Source of the DNA: Bacteroidota bacterium
GTDB taxonomy: Bacteria > Bacteroidota > Bacteroidia > B-17B0 > Aurantibacillaceae
Length of the DNA: 64,000 bases
Assembly (NCBI GenBank): GCA_017303905.1
Contig: JAFLBH010000003.1
Span: forward strand, 1-64,000
Direction of reading: 5' to 3'
Part shown: in pieces, positions 39,383-50,493 of the stretch
How positions within the stretch are numbered: the first letter of the stretch is position 1
How the letters are laid out: each line of letters opens with the position of its first letter
Program-made: the position numbers and the translations under genes
Notes under the pieces: model-generated
Database searches by the model: none
Seen by the model: only the letters and a program-made list of their open reading frames with translations
What the model was told of the DNA's origin: nothing

Positions 39383-40012
39383 TTACTTTTTCTTTGGCGC
39401 AATTACCATTTGCATTTTCTTTCCTTCTAACACCGGCAATTGTTCTGCCTTACCAAACTCCTCTAATTCATTTGCAAAACGTAATAACAATAATTCGCCT
39501 TGTTCTTTAAACACAATCTCACGTCCGCGGAACATTACAATTGCTTTTACTTTACATCCGTCTTTTAAAAACTTGATAGCGTGATTCTTTTTAAAATTGT
39601 AATCATGCTCATCAGTATGTGGTCCGAAACGAATATCCTTTACTACAACCTTTGCAGCTTTCGCTTTTATTTCCTTGGCCTTTTTCTTTAACTCGTAAAG
39701 AAACTTACCATAATCTATCACTTTACAAACCGGCGGATCAACGTTAGGAGCGATTTCTACTAAATCTAAGCCTGCTTCACGGGCAATCTCTAATGCTTTT
39801 CCAATTGGATAAACACCCGCTTCGATATCTTCTCCAACAACACGAACTGTACGAGCTGTAATTCGCTCGTTAATTTTATGTTGTTCTTCTTTTACACCCG
39901 GCCTTTTAAAACCTTCTTTTAAGCCTCTCGGTCTTGGTTTTTGAAAAGGAGTTTCTCCCGGCTTATTCGTGCCTGGAGTTTGGTTTGGTGTTGGTTTTTT
40001 AAAGACGTTAAT
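39383..40012 (-). CDS. infC: Translation initiation factor IF-3, AUU start
   Basis: IF-3 binds the 30S subunit, keeps it free of 50S and checks the start codon. The frame from ATT at 40012 gives 209 residues: a basic Pro-rich N-terminal tail, then [40 protein letters not shown] and the C-terminal domain ([22 protein letters not shown]). No ATG, GTG or TTG lies in frame between the upstream stop and GTG at 39721, which is well inside the conserved fold. A GGAGGT at 40022-40017 sits 4 nt before the ATT. The AUU start is a known autoregulatory device of infC. It lies 15 nt after the thrS stop. Confidence 0.94.
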
Positions 40013-40027: not shown

Positions 40028-41974
40028 TTAGTTTAACTTTTGTTTAAAATCGTTTTCTATTGTTGTGTTAATCAATTTGGCAAACTCTTCAATGGTCATT
40101 ACACCAATATCGCCTTTACCATGTTCACGAACTGCAACCTTTCCTTCCGCCTCTTCTTTTTCACCTACAACTAACATATAAGGAATCTTATTTATCTCAT
40201 TGTCCCTTATCTTCTTACCAATCTTTTCGTTGCGGTCGTCAACAAGGCCGCGAATATCGGAATTATTTAGCAATCCTAAAACTTTTTTAGCGTAATCGTT
40301 GTACTTTTCGCTGATTGGTAAAATGGCTACCTGATCAGGCGTTAACCACAACGGGAACTTACCACCACAATGCTCAATTAAAACGGCAATGAATCGCTCC
40401 AAACTGCCAAATGGCGCACGGTGTATCATTACAGGTCTATGTTTCTGATTATCAGACCCAGTATACTCTAATTGGAAGCGCTCAGGAAGGTTATAATCCA
40501 CCTGAATGGTACCCAATTGCCACTTACGGCCAAGGGCATCCTTCACCATAAAGTCTAATTTCGGACCATAAAACGCGGCTTCACCCTCTTCCACTACGGT
40601 TTTTAAACCTTTTTCGGCTGCGCTTTCAATAATCGCCTGCTCAGCCAAATTCCAGTTTTCATCGCTTCCAATATACTTGGTTTTGTTGTTAGGGTCGCGT
40701 AAAGATATTTGAGCGGTGTAATCTTTAAAATCTAAGGCATTGAAAACATACAACACCAAATCAATTACTTTACAAAACTCTTCCTTCACTTGATCCGGAC
40801 GAACGAATAAGTGCGCATCATCTTGTGTAAATCCGCGCACACGGGTTAATCCGTGCAACTCACCATGTTGCTCGTAACGATAAACAGTTCCGAATTCAGC
40901 AAAACGCACCGGTAAATCTTTATAGGATTTAGGAGAGGATTTATAAATTTCACAGTGGTGCGGACAATTCATTGGTTTTAAGAAAAATTGTTCGCCCTCC
41001 TGAGGAGTATTGATAGGCTGAAAAGAATCAGCGCCATATTTTTCATAGTGACCTGAGCACACATATAAATCTTTCAATGCAATATGAGGCGTAACAACCG
41101 GCAAATACCCCGACTTTGTTTGCGCTTTTTGCATGAACTGAATTAAACGCTCACGCAACATGGCTCCTTTTGGTAACCATAATGGCAAACCCAATCCTAC
41201 TTTCTCAGAAAAAGTAAATAACTCTAATTCCTTACCTAATTTACGGTGATCGCGTTTCTTTGCTTCTTCTAATAAGGTTAAATATTCTTTTAACTCCTTA
41301 TCCTTTGGGAAGGTGATACCATAAACACGGGTCAGCTGTTTATTTTTTTCATCACCGCGCCAATAAGCACCGGCTACGCGCAATAATTTTACAGCTTTAA
41401 TAAAACCTGTGTTAGGAATGTGTGGTCCGCGGCATAAATCGGTGAATTCACCTTGCGTATAGAAAGTAATGGAACCGTCGGCTAAGCCATCGATTAATTC
41501 CAATTTATAAGGATCTCCTTTTTCGGTAAAATATTTTATTGCATCCGCTTTCGAAACTTCCTTGCGGATGTATTCATTTTTCTTGGAAGCAAGCTCCATC
41601 ATTTTTTTCTCTACTTGCTCGAGATGATCGGTAGAAAATGTTTTATCGCCGAAGTCGATATCGTAGTAAAAACCATTTTCAACCGGAGGACCGATGGCAA
41701 ATTTTGCGCCCGGAAAAATGCTTTCAATAGCCTCTGCCATTAAATGCGCAGAGCTATGCCACATGGTTTCTTTTCCTTCGGCATCATTCCACGTTAATAA
41801 ACTTAAGGTACAATCGGAGTTGAGCGGACGTGAAGCATCCCATACTTCTCCGTTAACTTTTGCCGATAATACATTGCGTGCTAAACCTTCGCTGATGCTC
41901 AATGCTACTTGCATAGAGGTGGTTCCTTTAGGATATTCGCGAACGGAACCATCTGGTAGTGTTACTTTAATCAT
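40028..41974 (-). CDS. thrS: Threonyl-tRNA synthetase
   Basis: A 648-residue enzyme that charges tRNA-Thr. An N-terminal TGS domain ([19 protein letters not shown]) is followed by the editing domain with the metal-site-like [12 protein letters not shown]. The class II core has [11 protein letters not shown] (zinc Cys), [14 protein letters not shown] (motif 2) and [18 protein letters not shown] (motif 3). The anticodon-binding domain starts near [15 protein letters not shown]. First gene of thrS-infC-rpmI-rplT. A hairpin resembling the tRNA-Thr anticodon arm lies 9 nt before its ATG, suggesting feedback control of translation. Confidence 0.97.
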
Positions 41975-41983
41975 AATGTTGGC

Positions 41984-42000
41984 CCCACTTACAACGTGGG
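41984..42000 (-). promoter_or_regulatory. thrS leader hairpin mimicking the tRNA-Thr(UGU) anticodon arm
   Basis: On the mRNA strand CCCAC-GUUGUAA-GUGGG makes a 5-bp stem with a 7-nt loop, exactly the geometry of an anticodon arm. Loop position 33 is U, positions 34-36 are UGU (the Thr anticodon that reads ACA), and 37-38 are AA. The loop differs from the E. coli tRNA-Thr(UGU) loop CUUGUAA, as I recall it, only at position 32. The stem ends 9 nt before the AUG, so bound ThrRS would block ribosomes. It is not followed by a U-run on this strand, so it is not a terminator of thrS-sense transcripts. Confidence 0.6.
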
Positions 42001-42016: not shown

Positions 42017-42049
42017 CAAAGATAATATATTTTAGGAAACAGACATCAA
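42017..42049 (-). promoter_or_regulatory. Predicted thrS operon promoter
   Basis: On the minus strand TATCTTTG (42024-42017) fits TAnnTTTG fully; a TTG lies 22 nt upstream of it. Transcription would start near 42012, giving a leader of about 38 nt that includes the anticodon-like hairpin. Confidence 0.5.
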
Positions 42050-42156: not shown

Positions 42157-44898
42157 ATGAGAAAACTTCTACTCCTTTTATTATTGGTTTCAGCGAAATT
42201 GGTAATAAGCCAGAATGGTTTTACCACCTACTCTACTGTACTTCCGGCAGGTGCACCACCATCCACTCAAAACTGTATTTATGTAGACAATGCCGGTAAA
42301 GTGTGGATTGGATATACTTCAGTTGCCACAGGTGCAGTTGCTTTTGCAGTTTATAATCCTACAACGACTGCCTGGACTTTCTACAATAAAACAAATACGC
42401 CTGCTTTACCTTCTAATGTAGTAAAATGTTTTAAAGAGGATAATCTAGGAAATATGTGGATAGGAACCAATTTGGGATTGGTTAAGTATGACGGCGCAAA
42501 CTTTTACACTTTTACTATTGGCAATGGGTTACCTTCAAATTACATTTACAGTCTTGAATGGGTAAACAATATGCTTTACATAGGTACTTTTAATGGCGGG
42601 TTATCAAGGTATGATGGTAGCGTCTTTACAAATTACAATTCCGGTAATTCTCTCTTTCCGATAGGTACAATTCATTCCATAAAAGCCGAGAACCCAAATA
42701 AGTTATGGACTATTACTTCAAACCAACTTGTTGAATTCAATATTAACTCAACCTATACATCAACATCATATTCTATATCTGTTGCAACTCCAACGTCAAA
42801 TATTTTTACTGATGTTTACATAGATGCTTTTGGAAATAAGTGGTTAGCTGGTTTCGATGGGCCAGTTAAATATAACAGCTCTGGTTTTACATATTTCAAT
42901 AATATGTTTCCTGACCTTCCAAATACATTTAGCAGTGCTGGAAATATCGTAAAAGGCCCGAATAACGGAGCATTAGTTTTAGGCACTTATGACGGAAATT
43001 ATCCTTATTTAGCAGAGTTCTTGTCAAATAATAAAATAGAATATTATACTCCGCCTTCGAATTTAAAGCCATTAAGATTCTTCTATAATTATTTCGGAAA
43101 AATTTATTTCCTAAATTCAATAAACACTGCTTCTACTACCAGTTTCATTGTTTTTGATAAAGCAAATTACTCTGCGATTAAAGCATTCGATCAAAACCCT
43201 ATTGGGGTTACCAATAACAATTATAAATTCCTCGATATCAACCGCGTTAAGACGGGTATATACAACAGAGGAGATATGTTTTGGGATATTGCAGCCTACG
43301 GTACTGCGAATTATTTGGTTCCAACTCCAAATGTATTACCCTATGGGCCAAGCTCTGAATTTGCATCTGCTTTATGGATAGGAGGCTTGGATGCTTCCAA
43401 TCAATTACACATTGCTGCTCAAACATACCGACAAAGCGGGAATGATTTTTGGCCAGGACCACTTGACACCATCAATGGTGGAGCTGATACATTGAGCGCC
43501 TTGAATTATGATCATATCTGGAAAGTGAGTTATACAGATATCAATAATTTTATCACACAATTCAATGCTGGGAATGTACCTCTTACTTATACTCCAACAC
43601 CTGACATTGTAAACTGGCCCGCGCACGGTACAGGAAACAAAGCTAAAAACTTAGCACCTTTCGTAGATGTTAACGGAGATGGCATTTACAATTGGCAACA
43701 AGGGGATTATCCGAAAATTAAAGGCGATCAAACTCTCTATTTCATCTTTAATGATAAACTAGGCAATCATCAGGAGAGCGGCGGTTTACCATTGGGCGTA
43801 GAAATTCATTGTATGGCTTACGCTTATGGCTGTCCGAATGTCATCAATGGCCGCAATGAATTAGCCTACACCACTTTTTACGATTATAAAATTCATAACC
43901 GCAGTAATAATAATTACCACGATATGTATGTGTCACACTGGAGCGATGCTGATTTAGGAAATTACGTGGATGATTACATTGGAAGCAGCATACACGATAA
44001 TTTAGGTTTTATTTATAACTCAGATGCAGATGATAGTGGGTTTTCTGGTGCCTCAGGTTATGATTTATATCCACCCGCTTGCGGTCGAACTATTTTAAAA
44101 GGTCCGCTTGCCACTTCAGGAGATTTGATTGATAATGATAACGACAGTATCATAGACGAACCGGGGGAACGATGCTTACTAAATGTGTTTAATTATTACA
44201 ATAACAACATTGGTTCATTTCCTATAGCTACTACAAATCCTTCTAGTCCATATCACATTCATAATTATATGCGAGGCTATTGGAAAGACAGTACCAGTTT
44301 TACCTGCGGAGGCAATGCGTTTGGCGGTACAACTCCAACTAAATTTGTGTACCCGTGGATGAATTACCAAAACAACCCTTGTACAACTAACTGGACAGAA
44401 CTCAGTGCCGGTAACCTTCCCGGAGACCGAAGGTACATAGTAAGCAGCGGTCCGTTTAATTTACCCTCCAAAGGACAAACTGAATTTGAAGTAGCTTTGG
44501 TTTGGTCGGTGGATAGTGCTGCAACCAGCAACAGAAACATTGCCAGTGCTAACAAACTGATTCAGGATGCGCGCAAAGTAAGAAGTTTTTACAACGGACC
44601 AATTCCGAATTGTTTACAGAAAATTAATATTGGCATAAAAGAAAATGAAAGTATTAATCATTTAATTGGCTTGTACCCAAATCCTGCGCAATCCTATCTG
44701 CAAATTTCAAGTGATGTGGAATTAGGAAAATGCGATTACAGTATAATGGATGTAACAGGACGTACCATAAAAACCGGACACCTGAGTGATTTGAGTCAGA
44801 GTACCATTAATATTAACGAGTTAAATGCGGGAATTTACTTTTTGAATCTTAACTTTAATAGTAACCAAAAAGCTATTAAAAAGTTTGTGAAGCAATAA
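42157..44898 (+). CDS. Secreted propeller protein with T9SS type-A sorting domain, tandem paralog 1
   Basis: A 913-residue secreted protein, first of three tandem paralogs. Signal peptide 1-19 (MRKLLLLLLLVSAKLVIS). Residues 20-350 are propeller blades of the two-component-regulator type (GKVWIGY, GNMWIGTNLGLVKYDG, LYIGTFNGGLSRYDG). Residues 370-820 form a domain shared by the three: NRGDMFWD, SALWIGGLDASNQLHIAAQ, FWPGPLD, calcium-loop-like DVNGDGIYN, YPKIKGDQTLYFIFND and DNDNDSIIDE. The last ~75 residues are a type-A sorting domain (LYPNPAQSYLQI, VTGRTIKTG, GIYFLNLN). The middle domain occurs in other Bacteroidota secreted proteins; I know no function for it. Confidence 0.9.
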   Translation: MRKLLLLLLLVSAKLVISQNGFTTYSTVLPAGAPPSTQNCIYVDNAGKVWIGYTSVATGAVAFAVYNPTTTAWTFYNKTNTPALPSNVVKCFKEDNLGNMWIGTNLGLVKYDGANFYTFTIGNGLPSNYIYSLEWVNNMLYIGTFNGGLSRYDGSVFTNYNSGNSLFPIGTIHSIKAENPNKLWTITSNQLVEFNINSTYTSTSYSISVATPTSNIFTDVYIDAFGNKWLAGFDGPVKYNSSGFTYFNNMFPDLPNTFSSAGNIVKGPNNGALVLGTYDGNYPYLAEFLSNNKIEYYTPPSNLKPLRFFYNYFGKIYFLNSINTASTTSFIVFDKANYSAIKAFDQNPIGVTNNNYKFLDINRVKTGIYNRGDMFWDIAAYGTANYLVPTPNVLPYGPSSEFASALWIGGLDASNQLHIAAQTYRQSGNDFWPGPLDTINGGADTLSALNYDHIWKVSYTDINNFITQFNAGNVPLTYTPTPDIVNWPAHGTGNKAKNLAPFVDVNGDGIYNWQQGDYPKIKGDQTLYFIFNDKLGNHQESGGLPLGVEIHCMAYAYGCPNVINGRNELAYTTFYDYKIHNRSNNNYHDMYVSHWSDADLGNYVDDYIGSSIHDNLGFIYNSDADDSGFSGASGYDLYPPACGRTILKGPLATSGDLIDNDNDSIIDEPGERCLLNVFNYYNNNIGSFPIATTNPSSPYHIHNYMRGYWKDSTSFTCGGNAFGGTTPTKFVYPWMNYQNNPCTTNWTELSAGNLPGDRRYIVSSGPFNLPSKGQTEFEVALVWSVDSAATSNRNIASANKLIQDARKVRSFYNGPIPNCLQKINIGIKENESINHLIGLYPNPAQSYLQISSDVELGKCDYSIMDVTGRTIKTGHLSDLSQSTININELNAGIYFLNLNFNSNQKAIKKFVKQ

Positions 44899-44908
44899 AC
44901 TTAAACCC

Positions 44909-47635
44909 ATGAAAAAATACTTACTCATATTCTTCCTGATTTTTTCGAAATCATTCTTTTCGCAGAATGGTTTTACAAGTTATTCCACATCCATTCCTTC
45001 GTCTTCCTCGTTACCATCAAGATGCATTTACGAGGATAATTCCGGTAAAGTTTGGATGGGATATCAGGCTTCATTGTCTGCCTCAGTTATAGTTTCTGTT
45101 TATAATACAACTACAACAACCTGGACTATCTATAACAAAACAAACACTCCAAGTCTACCGGCACCAATTTCTGTGAATTGTTTTAAAGAAGATAATTTGG
45201 GAAATATGTGGATTGGCACTACGAGAGGTCTGGTAAAATTTGACGGTACTAATTTTACGAATTATACAATTGTGAATGGTTTACCGGATACAGTTATTTA
45301 TTCGTTAGAATTTAACAGTAACATGTTATTTATCGGAACGAATCGTGGTTTATCCAGATTTGACGGCACCAACTTCACAAATTACAATATCTCGAATGGC
45401 TTGTTTCCTACAAATTCAGTTTGGAGTTTACGCGCAGAAAATCCCAATACAATTTGGGCTTGTAACTCCAATAGCATCGTGCAGTTTACGTATAATCCTA
45501 CATTCACTTCAACGGGTTTTACCACTGCTGTTTCTACAATTACAACAGGTATTAATTTTTCTAATCTTTATATCGATAGCAATGGTGACAAATGGCTAAC
45601 AAGCAGCTATGGCCCAACGAAATTCAGCGGAGGGATTTTCTCCTACTTCAAAGACTTGTATCCCGACAATAATTATAATGGTTATGGCCAAGGAGGCTTA
45701 TGTAAAGGTCCAAATGGTGGAGTAATGTATATCGGAGAAAACGCACTAAGTCATGCTTTTTTGGTTGAATTATTACCCGGCAACCGTATAAATTATTTTC
45801 ACCCTAAAAAAGGAACTAATTTACGAGGTTCACTATTTACAAATGCTTCCGGTAAAATTTTAATTGCATCCCTGCAATCTACCATGTTATATCAAGGAAT
45901 CATTCATTTTATCAATTTTGATGAAACACTTTATTCGGAATTAGAAGCGTTCAGGAATAATGATTTTATCATTAATCAACATAACGCCAAAAATCTTGAC
46001 ATCAATCAGGTAAAAGCAAAGATTATGAATCGCGGCGACATGCATTGGGACGTTACTGCAGGGAGTCCTATGTATGAAGTACCAAAAGGCAGTGGCGTAC
46101 ATTCTGGTTTGTGCAATTCATTTTGGATTGGTGGTTTAGATGCATCGAATCAGCTCCACTTAGCAGCTCAAAGATACAGAATGAAAGGTTGCGATTTTTG
46201 GCCTGGGGCATTGGACACGCTTAACGGTGAAGCCGACACCTTAAACGCGTTTAATTACGATCATATCTGGAAGGTAAGTTATACCGATATCAATAATTTC
46301 ATTACCCAATTTAATTTGGGTAATGTTCCGCTTAGCTACACACCGACTCCCGACATGGTGAACTGGCCCGCTCACGGAACAGGAAACAAAGCCAAAAACT
46401 TAGCCCCCTTTGTGGATGTAAATGGTGACGGTATTTATAACTGGAAACACGGTGACTATCCTAAAATCAAAGGCGACCAAGCCCTCTATTTTATATTCAA
46501 TGATAAATTGGGCAATCATACAGAGAGCGGAGGTTTACCATTGGGTGTTGAAATCCATTGCATGGCATATGCCTATGGTTGTCCGAACATTATCAATGGC
46601 CGCAACGAATTAGCTTATACTACTTTTTACGATTATAAAATTTTTAACCGGAGCAACAATAACTATCACGAGATGTACATTTTAAATTGGAGTGATCCGG
46701 ATTTGGGGAATTATGTTGATGATTATGTTGGTTGCAGCGTACATGATAATTTGGGATTTGTTTATAATGCAGACACACTGGATGAAACCTATGGTGGTGC
46801 ATACGGCTATCAAAAATTCACCCCTGCAACCGGACATATTGTATTAAATGGTCCATTGGCAACTGCCGGAGATTTGATTGATAATGATCACGACAGTATC
46901 ATTGATGAACCCGGAGAAAAATGCTTGATGAGCGCCTTTACTCATTCTACAGGTGGTATTTACCAATTTCCGCCTAATCATTTAAAGTATCCATACAGGT
47001 ATCATAATTACATGGAGGGTCGCTGGTATGATAGTACAAATTTCACTTGCGGAGGTAATGCCTACGGCGGAACAACACCAACTAAATTTGTTTTCCCATG
47101 GATGAATTACCAAAACAATCCGTGTGCGGGCAACTGGTCAGAATCCAGTGCTGGCAATTGGCCATCTGATCGCACTTATCATATAAGCAGCGGTCCTTTT
47201 AATTTACCGTCCAAAGGACAAACTGAATTTGAATTGGCTTTGGTTTGGTCGGTGGATAGCGCTGCAACCAGCAACAGAAACATTGCCAGTGTAAACAAAC
47301 TGATTCAGGATGCGCGTAAAGTAAAAAGCTTTTATAGTGGCGCGATTCCAAACTGTTTACAAAAAGTAAACATCAAGGAAAATGAAAGCATCAAACACTT
47401 GATTGATTTGTATCCGAATCCTGCTCAAACTTATATACAAATCAAAAGCGATATTGAGTTTGGAAAATGTACTTACAACATAACAGATGTATTGGGAAGA
47501 AACATAAAAAGTGGTCAACTCAATAGTTTAAGTCAAAGTATCATACATATCAACGAACTCAACGCCGGTGTATACTTTTTGAACATTAACTTTAACAGCA
47601 ATGAGATTGTAGTGAAAAAGTTTGTGAAACAATAA
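44909..47635 (+). CDS. Secreted propeller protein with T9SS type-A sorting domain, tandem paralog 2
   Basis: A 908-residue paralog starting 10 nt after paralog 1, so probably co-transcribed. It has the same order: signal peptide, propeller (GNMWIGTTRGLVKFDG, LFIGTNRGLSRFDG), middle domain (NRGDMHWDV, SFWIGGLDASNQLHLAAQ, DVNGDGIYN, YPKIKGDQALYFIFND, DNDHDSIIDE) and type-A sorting domain (LYPNPAQTYIQI, VLGRNIKSG, GVYFLNIN). Its body is closest to paralog 1, including a near-identical DNA stretch around 47198-47330. Its signal peptide DNA instead nearly matches paralog 3. Confidence 0.9.
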   Translation: MKKYLLIFFLIFSKSFFSQNGFTSYSTSIPSSSSLPSRCIYEDNSGKVWMGYQASLSASVIVSVYNTTTTTWTIYNKTNTPSLPAPISVNCFKEDNLGNMWIGTTRGLVKFDGTNFTNYTIVNGLPDTVIYSLEFNSNMLFIGTNRGLSRFDGTNFTNYNISNGLFPTNSVWSLRAENPNTIWACNSNSIVQFTYNPTFTSTGFTTAVSTITTGINFSNLYIDSNGDKWLTSSYGPTKFSGGIFSYFKDLYPDNNYNGYGQGGLCKGPNGGVMYIGENALSHAFLVELLPGNRINYFHPKKGTNLRGSLFTNASGKILIASLQSTMLYQGIIHFINFDETLYSELEAFRNNDFIINQHNAKNLDINQVKAKIMNRGDMHWDVTAGSPMYEVPKGSGVHSGLCNSFWIGGLDASNQLHLAAQRYRMKGCDFWPGALDTLNGEADTLNAFNYDHIWKVSYTDINNFITQFNLGNVPLSYTPTPDMVNWPAHGTGNKAKNLAPFVDVNGDGIYNWKHGDYPKIKGDQALYFIFNDKLGNHTESGGLPLGVEIHCMAYAYGCPNIINGRNELAYTTFYDYKIFNRSNNNYHEMYILNWSDPDLGNYVDDYVGCSVHDNLGFVYNADTLDETYGGAYGYQKFTPATGHIVLNGPLATAGDLIDNDHDSIIDEPGEKCLMSAFTHSTGGIYQFPPNHLKYPYRYHNYMEGRWYDSTNFTCGGNAYGGTTPTKFVFPWMNYQNNPCAGNWSESSAGNWPSDRTYHISSGPFNLPSKGQTEFELALVWSVDSAATSNRNIASVNKLIQDARKVKSFYSGAIPNCLQKVNIKENESIKHLIDLYPNPAQTYIQIKSDIEFGKCTYNITDVLGRNIKSGQLNSLSQSIIHINELNAGVYFLNINFNSNEIVVKKFVKQ

Positions 47636-47727
47636 AAGCTGCCACTTATTTAAAATTGTGAGCCACTTATGATTTTCGTTACCTAAAGCCTGATTTTGTT
47701 GTAATTTAGTATAAGCTTCCTCAACAC

Positions 47728-50493
47728 ATGAAAAAATCTTTATTCATATTCTTCCTGATTTTTTCGAAATCATTCTTTTCGCAAAATGGCTGGAACGCTT
47801 ATTTAGGCGGTGCCTCGTCTTCATTTCTTACCGGACCCGAAACTTGTATTGCGATTGATAAAAACGGCAACAAATGGATAGGATTTACAAGTTCGCTTGC
47901 TTCATCGCCTGCAGCTTTGGCACGCTACGATAAAATTACCGGGTTCTGGACCTATTTCAACACTGCTAATACACCTGTTATTCCCAACAATCGTATTAGC
48001 TCCATCGCATGTGATAATACGGGCAATGTGTGGGCAGGCACTTCGGCCGGATTACTGAAATACGACGGTGCCAACTGGACTTGCTATACAACGGCCAATG
48101 GATTGCCAACCAACAATATTATTTCACTAGAATGCAATGGTAATAATGTTTATATCGGAACTACAAATGGATTATCCCGCTTAAATGGCGGCGTTTTCAC
48201 CAATTACAACACTTCCAATGGTTTATTACCAAATGATACGGTTAACTGTATCAAATCACAAAGTGCTACGCAAATATGGCTGGGAAATTACAATCGAATT
48301 ATTGAAGTTAATTTTAACACAAGTTTTACCAATTCCAGTTATAACATTCACCAAATTCCTTTTGTAACAAACAAGATTAATTGCATTTTCATTGATAACC
48401 TCAGTAAAAAATGGTTGGGCACAGTCTCCAAAGGTTTGGTTGAATTTGATAATTCCAACTTTACTCTCGCCTCTTCAACATATTCTGATATCATTGGAGT
48501 AAACACACCAACAACTAATTGTCTTGATATATGCCAGGGACCTAATAACGGGCCAATGATTTATGCCACTTGTACAGCTTACGGTCCAAATACCCCCGGC
48601 AGTAACTCAACATGGTGTTTATTGGAGTTATTACCTAATACTGAATATAAGGCCTATTATGTCCCAAATAACAATTACACCATTGGCGATTTTTTAGAAA
48701 ACGATCCGAACGGTGAAATTTATATCTCCAACAAACAACTTGTTCATTTAGGCGGCTTCTTAAAATTTATGTTTTCCTTTAAACCTTCCGATTATAAAAC
48801 TACTTTTCAGGGGCCGGGACAAGGTGTAACTAATAAAAACTACAAATACCTTGACATTAATCGTGTGCGTGCCGGAATTGCAAACCGGGGCGATATGTTT
48901 TGGGACGTAGGTGGAAGTGGAAATGCTAAATACGAAGTTCCAAAAGGAAGCGGCTCAAATGCGGGATTTTGCAATTCATTTTGGATTGGCGGACTCGATG
49001 CCTCTAATCAATTACATATTTCGGCTCAAACATACAGACAAAGCGGTTGCGATTTCTGGCCCGGACCATTAGACACAGTGAATGCGCTATGTGACACGAA
49101 CACTTTTATTAATTATGATAAAATATGGAAAATCAGTTACAACGACATTAATGATTTCAGAACAAACTTTTTGAACGGCAACATTGCCAATAATACGTAT
49201 ACACCAACCATCGATATTATCACATGGCCCGCACATGGTAATGGAAAATATTCACGAAACCTTGCACCGTTTGTAGATATGAATGGAAATGGGATTTATG
49301 ACCCGTTAACAGGTGGAGATTATCCAAGAATAAAAGGCGATCAAACACTTTATTTCATTTTTAATGATGATTTCGCTCCACACACAGAAGCAAAAGGCGC
49401 GCCCATGGGTATTGAAGTACATTGCATGGCTTACGCGTATGGTTGTCCGAATTTTTTAAACGGTAAAAACGAACTAGCCTACACTACTTTTTACAACTAT
49501 CGTATCATTAACAGAAGTCATCTTAACTACCACAACGTAAAAATCGCTTTGTTTGATGATGTGGATTTAGGAAATTATCTGGATGATTACATGGGCTGCC
49601 ATGTGAGTTCCAATTTAGGTTTTTCATACAATGCCGACGGAACAGATGAAAATGTTACCGGAATCATTGGTTATGGTAATTACCCTCCCGCTACCGGAAA
49701 ATGTTTTCTAAAGGGGCCCCCGGCTCCACCGAATGACGGATTAGATAATGACAATGATGGGATGATTGACGAATTGAATGAAGAGAGCCTTTTAGATGAA
49801 TTTGTTTATTATAATCCAAATATAAATCCTAACCCAACACCTACACACCCTCCTACGGGACCCTATGAATTTTTCAATTACATGAATGCACGTTGGCGTG
49901 ACAGTTCATATTATACGTGCGGAGGAAATGGTTATGGCGGCACAACGCCAACACGTTTCTTATATCCCTGGACATTTTACAACGGCATGCCGTGCTCTAT
50001 CTGGTCGGATAATGTAAATCCAAAAGGCGACCGTAGAAATATGATGGCAACAGGTGCTTTTAATCTAAATTCAAAATCTGAAGTTGAATTTGAATTTGCT
50101 AAAGTTTGGTCGGTAGATAGCACCAACGCAAATGATAATATTGGCGCGGTGAATAAATTATTGAGTGATGTACAGAAAATAAATACATTTTATAAAAGCG
50201 GGACTCAATCCACATGTCTTCCAAACATGGCAATAGGCATTAGCGAAAATCAACTTACCATATTAGAAGTTGAAGTCTATCCTAATCCAACACAAGAAAA
50301 ACTTCAAATTAAATTAGCCCGTGAAGAAAAATGTGAAATGAGTATTAAGGATGTAATGGGTAAAACGATTTTCAGTAAACGATTTGAAGGTTACTCCACC
50401 ATTATTGACGTGAAAGATTTATCACAAGGCGTCTACTTTATCCATTTACGGCAAAACGGTGCCCAAGCTGTTAAAAAAATCATTAAGCAATAG
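47728..50493 (+). CDS. Secreted propeller protein with T9SS type-A sorting domain, tandem paralog 3
   Basis: A 921-residue paralog, 92 nt after paralog 2, so it may have its own promoter. Domain order is the same: propeller (NKWIGFTSSL, GNVWAGTSAGLLKYDG, VYIGTTNGLSRLNG), middle domain (NRGDMFWDVGGSG, SFWIGGLDASNQLHISAQ, DMNGNGIYD, YPRIKGDQTLYFIFND, DNDNDGMIDELNEE) and type-A sorting domain (VYPNPTQEKLQIKL, VMGKTIFSK, GVYFIHLR). It is the most diverged of the three in the body, with extra insertions, but has almost the same signal peptide DNA as paralog 2. Confidence 0.9.
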   Translation: MKKSLFIFFLIFSKSFFSQNGWNAYLGGASSSFLTGPETCIAIDKNGNKWIGFTSSLASSPAALARYDKITGFWTYFNTANTPVIPNNRISSIACDNTGNVWAGTSAGLLKYDGANWTCYTTANGLPTNNIISLECNGNNVYIGTTNGLSRLNGGVFTNYNTSNGLLPNDTVNCIKSQSATQIWLGNYNRIIEVNFNTSFTNSSYNIHQIPFVTNKINCIFIDNLSKKWLGTVSKGLVEFDNSNFTLASSTYSDIIGVNTPTTNCLDICQGPNNGPMIYATCTAYGPNTPGSNSTWCLLELLPNTEYKAYYVPNNNYTIGDFLENDPNGEIYISNKQLVHLGGFLKFMFSFKPSDYKTTFQGPGQGVTNKNYKYLDINRVRAGIANRGDMFWDVGGSGNAKYEVPKGSGSNAGFCNSFWIGGLDASNQLHISAQTYRQSGCDFWPGPLDTVNALCDTNTFINYDKIWKISYNDINDFRTNFLNGNIANNTYTPTIDIITWPAHGNGKYSRNLAPFVDMNGNGIYDPLTGGDYPRIKGDQTLYFIFNDDFAPHTEAKGAPMGIEVHCMAYAYGCPNFLNGKNELAYTTFYNYRIINRSHLNYHNVKIALFDDVDLGNYLDDYMGCHVSSNLGFSYNADGTDENVTGIIGYGNYPPATGKCFLKGPPAPPNDGLDNDNDGMIDELNEESLLDEFVYYNPNINPNPTPTHPPTGPYEFFNYMNARWRDSSYYTCGGNGYGGTTPTRFLYPWTFYNGMPCSIWSDNVNPKGDRRNMMATGAFNLNSKSEVEFEFAKVWSVDSTNANDNIGAVNKLLSDVQKINTFYKSGTQSTCLPNMAIGISENQLTILEVEVYPNPTQEKLQIKLAREEKCEMSIKDVMGKTIFSKRFEGYSTIIDVKDLSQGVYFIHLRQNGAQAVKKIIKQ

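Follow-up and report, generated by a model that had tools for sequence, protein, structure and literature searches.

A hairpin resembling the tRNA-Thr anticodon arm in the thrS leaders of Aurantibacillaceae and other Bacteroidia

The textbook example of a bacterial mRNA that mimics a tRNA is the thrS operator of Escherichia coli. Threonyl-tRNA synthetase (ThrRS) binds two mimics of the anticodon arm upstream of the Shine-Dalgarno (SD) sequence of thrS, where its N-terminal part collides with the 30S subunit and tRNA-Thr acts as a competitor (PMC7373986). In the loops of this operator, G and U residues are named as conserved (PMC7373986), and the nucleotides of threonine anticodons are listed as identity elements (PMC9976931). 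The present analysis concerns the leader of thrS in a stretch of 64,000 nucleotides (the window) from a genome of the family Aurantibacillaceae (Bacteroidota; assembly GCA_017303905.1, contig JAFLBH010000003.1, positions 1 to 64,000), where a 17-nt hairpin stands just before the start codon. This hairpin is very probably a translational operator to which ThrRS binds and so blocks loading of the 30S subunit, that is, autoregulation of the E. coli type reduced to one hairpin. Domains 2 and 4 of the E. coli thrS translational operator were used for comparison (reviews PMC7373986 and PMC9976931; ThrRS-operator structure 1KOG). Folded here, the E. coli leader hairpins gave a 7-nt loop, UUCGUGU, and an 8-nt loop, AUUUGUUG, with U-N-G-U equally placed relative to the 3' arm.

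The hairpin and its conservation within the family

The minus strand of the window reads CCCAC GTTGTAA GTGGG from 42000 to 41984, so that the 5' untranslated region (UTR) of thrS contains CCCAC-GUUGUAA-GUGGG (41984..42000, minus strand), a stem of 5 bp with a loop of 7 nt that was identified as an anticodon-arm mimic by direct reading and comparative evidence. In tRNA numbering, G41995 occupies position 32, U41994 position 33, UGU at 41993-41991 positions 34-36, and A41990 and A41989 positions 37-38. The UGU triplet (41991..41993, minus strand) is a threonine anticodon and equals that of the tRNA-Thr(UGU) of the same genome, the anticodon arm of which, GCUGA-UUUGUAA-UCAGC, is identical to the hairpin loop at bases U33-A38. 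A spacer of 9 nt (41975..41983, minus strand), which has no SD sequence, separates the hairpin from the AUG at 41974. The original prediction had described the stem, the loop GUUGUAA and the distance to the AUG in the same terms, and the sequence reading agreed with it exactly. In the centroid structure of the leader the hairpin was the sole helix. Its palindrome was found once in the window (0.06 copies expected) and once in the 3.95-Mb genome, and a repeat or mobile palindrome was ruled out by this single copy per genome.

The thrS gene was located in 81 of 87 family genomes and the leaders were retrieved. An alignment of 68 family leaders was generated using MAFFT with no structure supplied; the hairpin fell in register across all of them, and RNAalifold recovered exactly the same stem. 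All five pairs were formed in every leader (100% of cells; 88% after shuffling), compensatory double changes were present at four of the five pairs (51 doubly changed cells versus 14.7 in shuffled data), and sliding the partner arm cut pairing to 27-42%. The non-Watson-Crick pairs, eight in number, were all G-U on the mRNA strand, which indicates that the minus-strand RNA is what selection acts on. Within the loop, U33, G35 and U36 were invariant (GU at 35-36 in 68/68 leaders) and position 34 was U in 67 leaders and C in one. As in an operator of the E. coli type, a hairpin with an NGU loop is thus placed in the thrS 5' UTR near the start codon, its paired stem conserved and its loop kept at the identity determinants G35 and U36. 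Covariation of the stem among relatives together with an NGU loop had been named as the check in the original prediction, and both were found; the lack of conservation that it had named as counter-evidence was not seen.

Specificity was assessed for a hairpin class defined by a stem of at least 5 bp, a loop of 7-8 nt, U33, and GU at 35-36. Leaders of hisS, proS and metG from the same family contained this class in 0 of 89 cases, and hairpins with the cognate anticodons were also absent from them. The thrS leaders of the named loci held 54 members of the class per 12.5 kb, with GU in 67% of U33 hairpins, and the rest of these loci held 119 in 1115 kb of strand, where 5% of U33 hairpins had GU, so that per base the class is 40 times less frequent there than in the leaders. 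The hairpins were also used to build a covariance model, which was scanned over 296 genomes; the thrS leader was the sole match at E<1 in its own genome, and the top matches in the other genomes were mostly directly upstream of thrS.

Upstream of the hairpin, TATCTTTG (42017..42024, minus strand) matches the Bacteroidota -7 element TAnnTTTG. A motif of this kind was shared by 64 of the 68 family leaders (shuffled mean 17) and ended mostly 14-16 nt before the hairpin. Transcription of Bacteroidota promoters starts 5-8 nt past the -7 element. We infer a transcript start roughly 8-10 nt ahead of the hairpin and a whole leader of about 40 nt, made up of these 8-10 nt, the hairpin, the spacer and the AUG. 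A leader of only this length would be too short to accommodate a T-box or another mimic.

Distribution across Bacteroidia

The class-level scan comprised 205 Bacteroidia thrS leaders, including those of 80 named loci and a sample of 60 drawn from about 40 additional families. The hairpin class was present in 117 of these; the other fifteen dinucleotides at 35-36 gave 1 to 11 leaders each, and dinucleotide shuffles gave a mean of 2.6 and a maximum of 9. Among 67 unique hairpins there were 33 different 5-bp stems, and position 34 was U in 55, C in 5, A in 5 and G in 2, so that all four threonine anticodons were represented with only the wobble base free, as would be predicted for a loop that is read by ThrRS. 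The carriers included Pedobacter, Mucilaginibacter, Sphingobacterium, Olivibacter, Algoriphagus, Belliella, Echinicola, Roseivirga and relatives of Spirosoma. On a ThrRS tree of 106 rows, presence of the hairpin changed at least 10 times, and each stem pair changed 6-9 times yet stayed paired. Leaders from 23 families of other classes of the phylum yielded at most one weak candidate, which is about chance level, and this absence from the sampled sister classes favours an origin within Bacteroidia. One hairpin from a further family of Bacteroidia (code f52, L284) looked strong but was within chance expectation and was set aside. Two leaders of another family (code f9; L195 and L196) have GC-rich stems with a CGU anticodon, GGACC-GUUCGUAG-GGUCC and CCACC-GUUCGUAA-GGUGG, and perhaps reflect a lineage-wide switch of position 34.

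Most thrS leaders of Sphingobacteriaceae (L114-L144, about -45 to +6) carry two hairpins with a threonine anticodon. The upstream one is mostly AUCAC-xUNGUxx-GUGAU and lies 37-90 nt before the AUG. The second, AAUCAU-AGUUGUAG-AUGAUU, has the AUG within its 3' arm; this arm is constrained by coding, yet UNGU is kept over the differing loops AGUUGUAG, AAUUGUUG, AUUCGUAG, UUUGUAU and GUUGUAA. The simpler single hairpin originally proposed for the Bacteroidota leader therefore holds for Aurantibacillaceae, which have one, and not for Sphingobacteriaceae, which have two.

Proposed mechanism and alternative explanations

On sequence grounds, the hairpin, its covariation, the invariant U-N-G-U, its confinement to thrS and the shortness of the leader can be regarded as established. 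The thrS gene (40028..41974, minus strand), assigned from its domains and from homology to solved ThrRS, would be both the source of the repressor and the regulated gene. Its product has TGS, SAD, class II core and HGTP anticodon-binding domains, and thereby the N-terminal domains and the anticodon-binding domain that belong to an operator of the E. coli type. We infer ThrRS binding, a steric block and titration by tRNA-Thr. The 17-nt hairpin would display U33-N34-G35-U36 in the manner of the tRNA-Thr anticodon arm, and ThrRS unoccupied by tRNA-Thr would bind the loop via its C-terminal anticodon-binding domain. The bound enzyme, N-terminal domains included, would block initiation at thrS, and perhaps also at a coupled infC, because the hairpin stands 9 nt before the AUG and inside the 30S footprint. 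Increasing tRNA-Thr would then pull ThrRS off the leader and lift repression. Since the loops of the E. coli operator and of the genome's own tRNA-Thr are alike, the same feedback is the most likely mechanism.

Several observations weigh against the ThrRS operator. The folding energy of the leader showed no excess stability over shuffled sequence (z about 0 to 0.75), and the case therefore rests on the relatives, where the comparative evidence is far beyond chance. The Sphingobacteriaceae stems are weak and were not the minimum-energy fold in the one leader folded. The loop was 8 nt long in 30 of the 67 unique hairpins, and base 32 was frequently G, which differs from a tRNA. Within the family, thrS of one genus (code g4, four genomes) and of one further genome (G059) lacked the hairpin, and among the 205 leaders it was not found in Flavobacteriales, Chitinophaga, Reichenbachiella and others. 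Finally, the E. coli operator has a mimic for each of the two subunits of the ThrRS dimer, with single strands linking them, and a split ribosome-binding site with an SD sequence next to the hairpin, whereas the window has one 17-nt hairpin and neither an SD sequence nor a split site.

The alternative that fares best, and still an improbable one, is that the hairpin serves another protein that recognises anticodon loops or belongs to the ribosomal cluster, such as a tRNA-modifying enzyme, L20 or IF3. A37 is common in the loops, and IF3, L35 and L20 are encoded in the same cluster, but the free position 34 and the fixed G35-U36 correspond to the threonine-specific part of the anticodon, the hairpin precedes thrS and not infC, rpmI or rplT, and none was present at the other synthetase genes tested (hisS, proS and metG).

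If a dimeric transcription factor bound the DNA just past the promoter, an inverted-repeat operator would account for palindromic arms near the presumed transcription start. We consider this reading very unlikely, since the arms vary (33 stem types) around an invariant, asymmetric U-N-G-U spacer, the opposite of what a palindromic operator would show; all eight departures from Watson-Crick pairing in the family alignment were G-U on the mRNA strand, and the distances to the AUG and to the presumed start vary among lineages. Equally slim is the chance of a generic 5'-stabilising hairpin or of an intrinsic terminator on either strand. The position near the presumed 5' end would suit a stabiliser, and, read on the plus strand, the palindrome with the TTTAAATTTA after it fits a crude terminator pattern; neither function explains the invariant UNGU loop, however, and there is no plus-strand gene end nearby. 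A plus-strand terminator was rejected because relatives have their wobbles as G-U on the mRNA strand and hence as A-C on the opposite one. The minus strand has no U-run after the hairpin, as had been noted beforehand, and the earlier judgement that a terminator is not the better explanation is upheld by this and by the orientation of the wobbles. A T-box, which regulates thrS in Firmicutes (PMC2494555), or peptide attenuation has a negligible probability, as no Rfam family scored above thresholds for the leader, a leader peptide is absent, about 40 nt is too short, and a survey reported no T-box in Bacteroidetes/Chlorobi (PMC2494555).

The gene following thrS in the thrS-infC-rpmI-rplT cluster is infC, encoding IF3 (39383..40012, minus strand). 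It has an in-frame AUU start 5 nt past GGAGG, and callers limited to open reading frames with ATG, GTG or TTG miss the true start. E. coli infC is known for its AUU start, which that of the window's infC resembles. The layout of SD sequence plus AUU also follows thrS in several relatives and is of note given that Bacteroidia ribosomes, according to PMC9976891, do not use the SD sequence, a statement with which the thrS leader without SD sequence is consistent. Divergent from thrS, the plus strand (42157-50493) encodes three tandem paralogues, each about 910 aa long, which have propeller-like repeats and end in a C-terminal tail of the sorting type. One family genome (G029) has a second thrS (L075, G029:C87:57285-59183), the product of which is 54% identical to the ThrRS of the window and the leader of which has no hairpin; it is possibly an acquired copy, for instance one giving resistance to a ThrRS inhibitor.

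Comparison with known systems

A thrS mimic in Bacteroidota was not described in the open-access papers searched, which held E. coli and yeast cases only, subscription journals and preprints being outside the search. We lean towards the view that a minimal ThrRS operator, with one 17-nt hairpin that fills much of a leader of about 40 nt and with no SD sequence, evolved in Bacteroidia independently of Gammaproteobacteria and was doubled in some lineages, the second copy lying around the start codon; an independent origin is favoured by the lack of the hairpin in the sister classes sampled. The occurrence of a simpler form in a second phylum would supply a natural mutational series, with 33 stems, four anticodons, either one or two hairpins and varied spacing. 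This series makes it possible to test the minimum for recognition of an mRNA by a synthetase, repression where ribosomes ignore the SD sequence, and whether mimicry recurs.

The yeast AspRS and HisRS mRNAs and the yeast ThrRS-RPC10 case (PMC6542539, PMC9956033) share with the mechanism proposed here a synthetase bound to an anticodon-like mRNA element; these are eukaryotic, of other architecture, and likened here by description and not by homology. The thrS T-box of Firmicutes senses, as the proposed operator would, the supply of threonine tRNA for thrS, but it uses a codon-like specifier read by the tRNA and antitermination, and no such structure is present in the window leader. With the E. 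coli operator the locus shares the gene, the position in the 5' UTR just before the start codon, U-N-G-U in loops of 7 or 8 nt, and a ThrRS of the same class with N-terminal and anticodon-binding domains. It differs in its leader, put at about 40 nt, in stems that are not recognisably homologous, in the use of four threonine anticodons across Bacteroidia species, and in the second mimic of Sphingobacteriaceae, which encloses the AUG. The hairpin is therefore best called a new form of the known ThrRS operator, and its architecture sets it outside the operator of E. coli.
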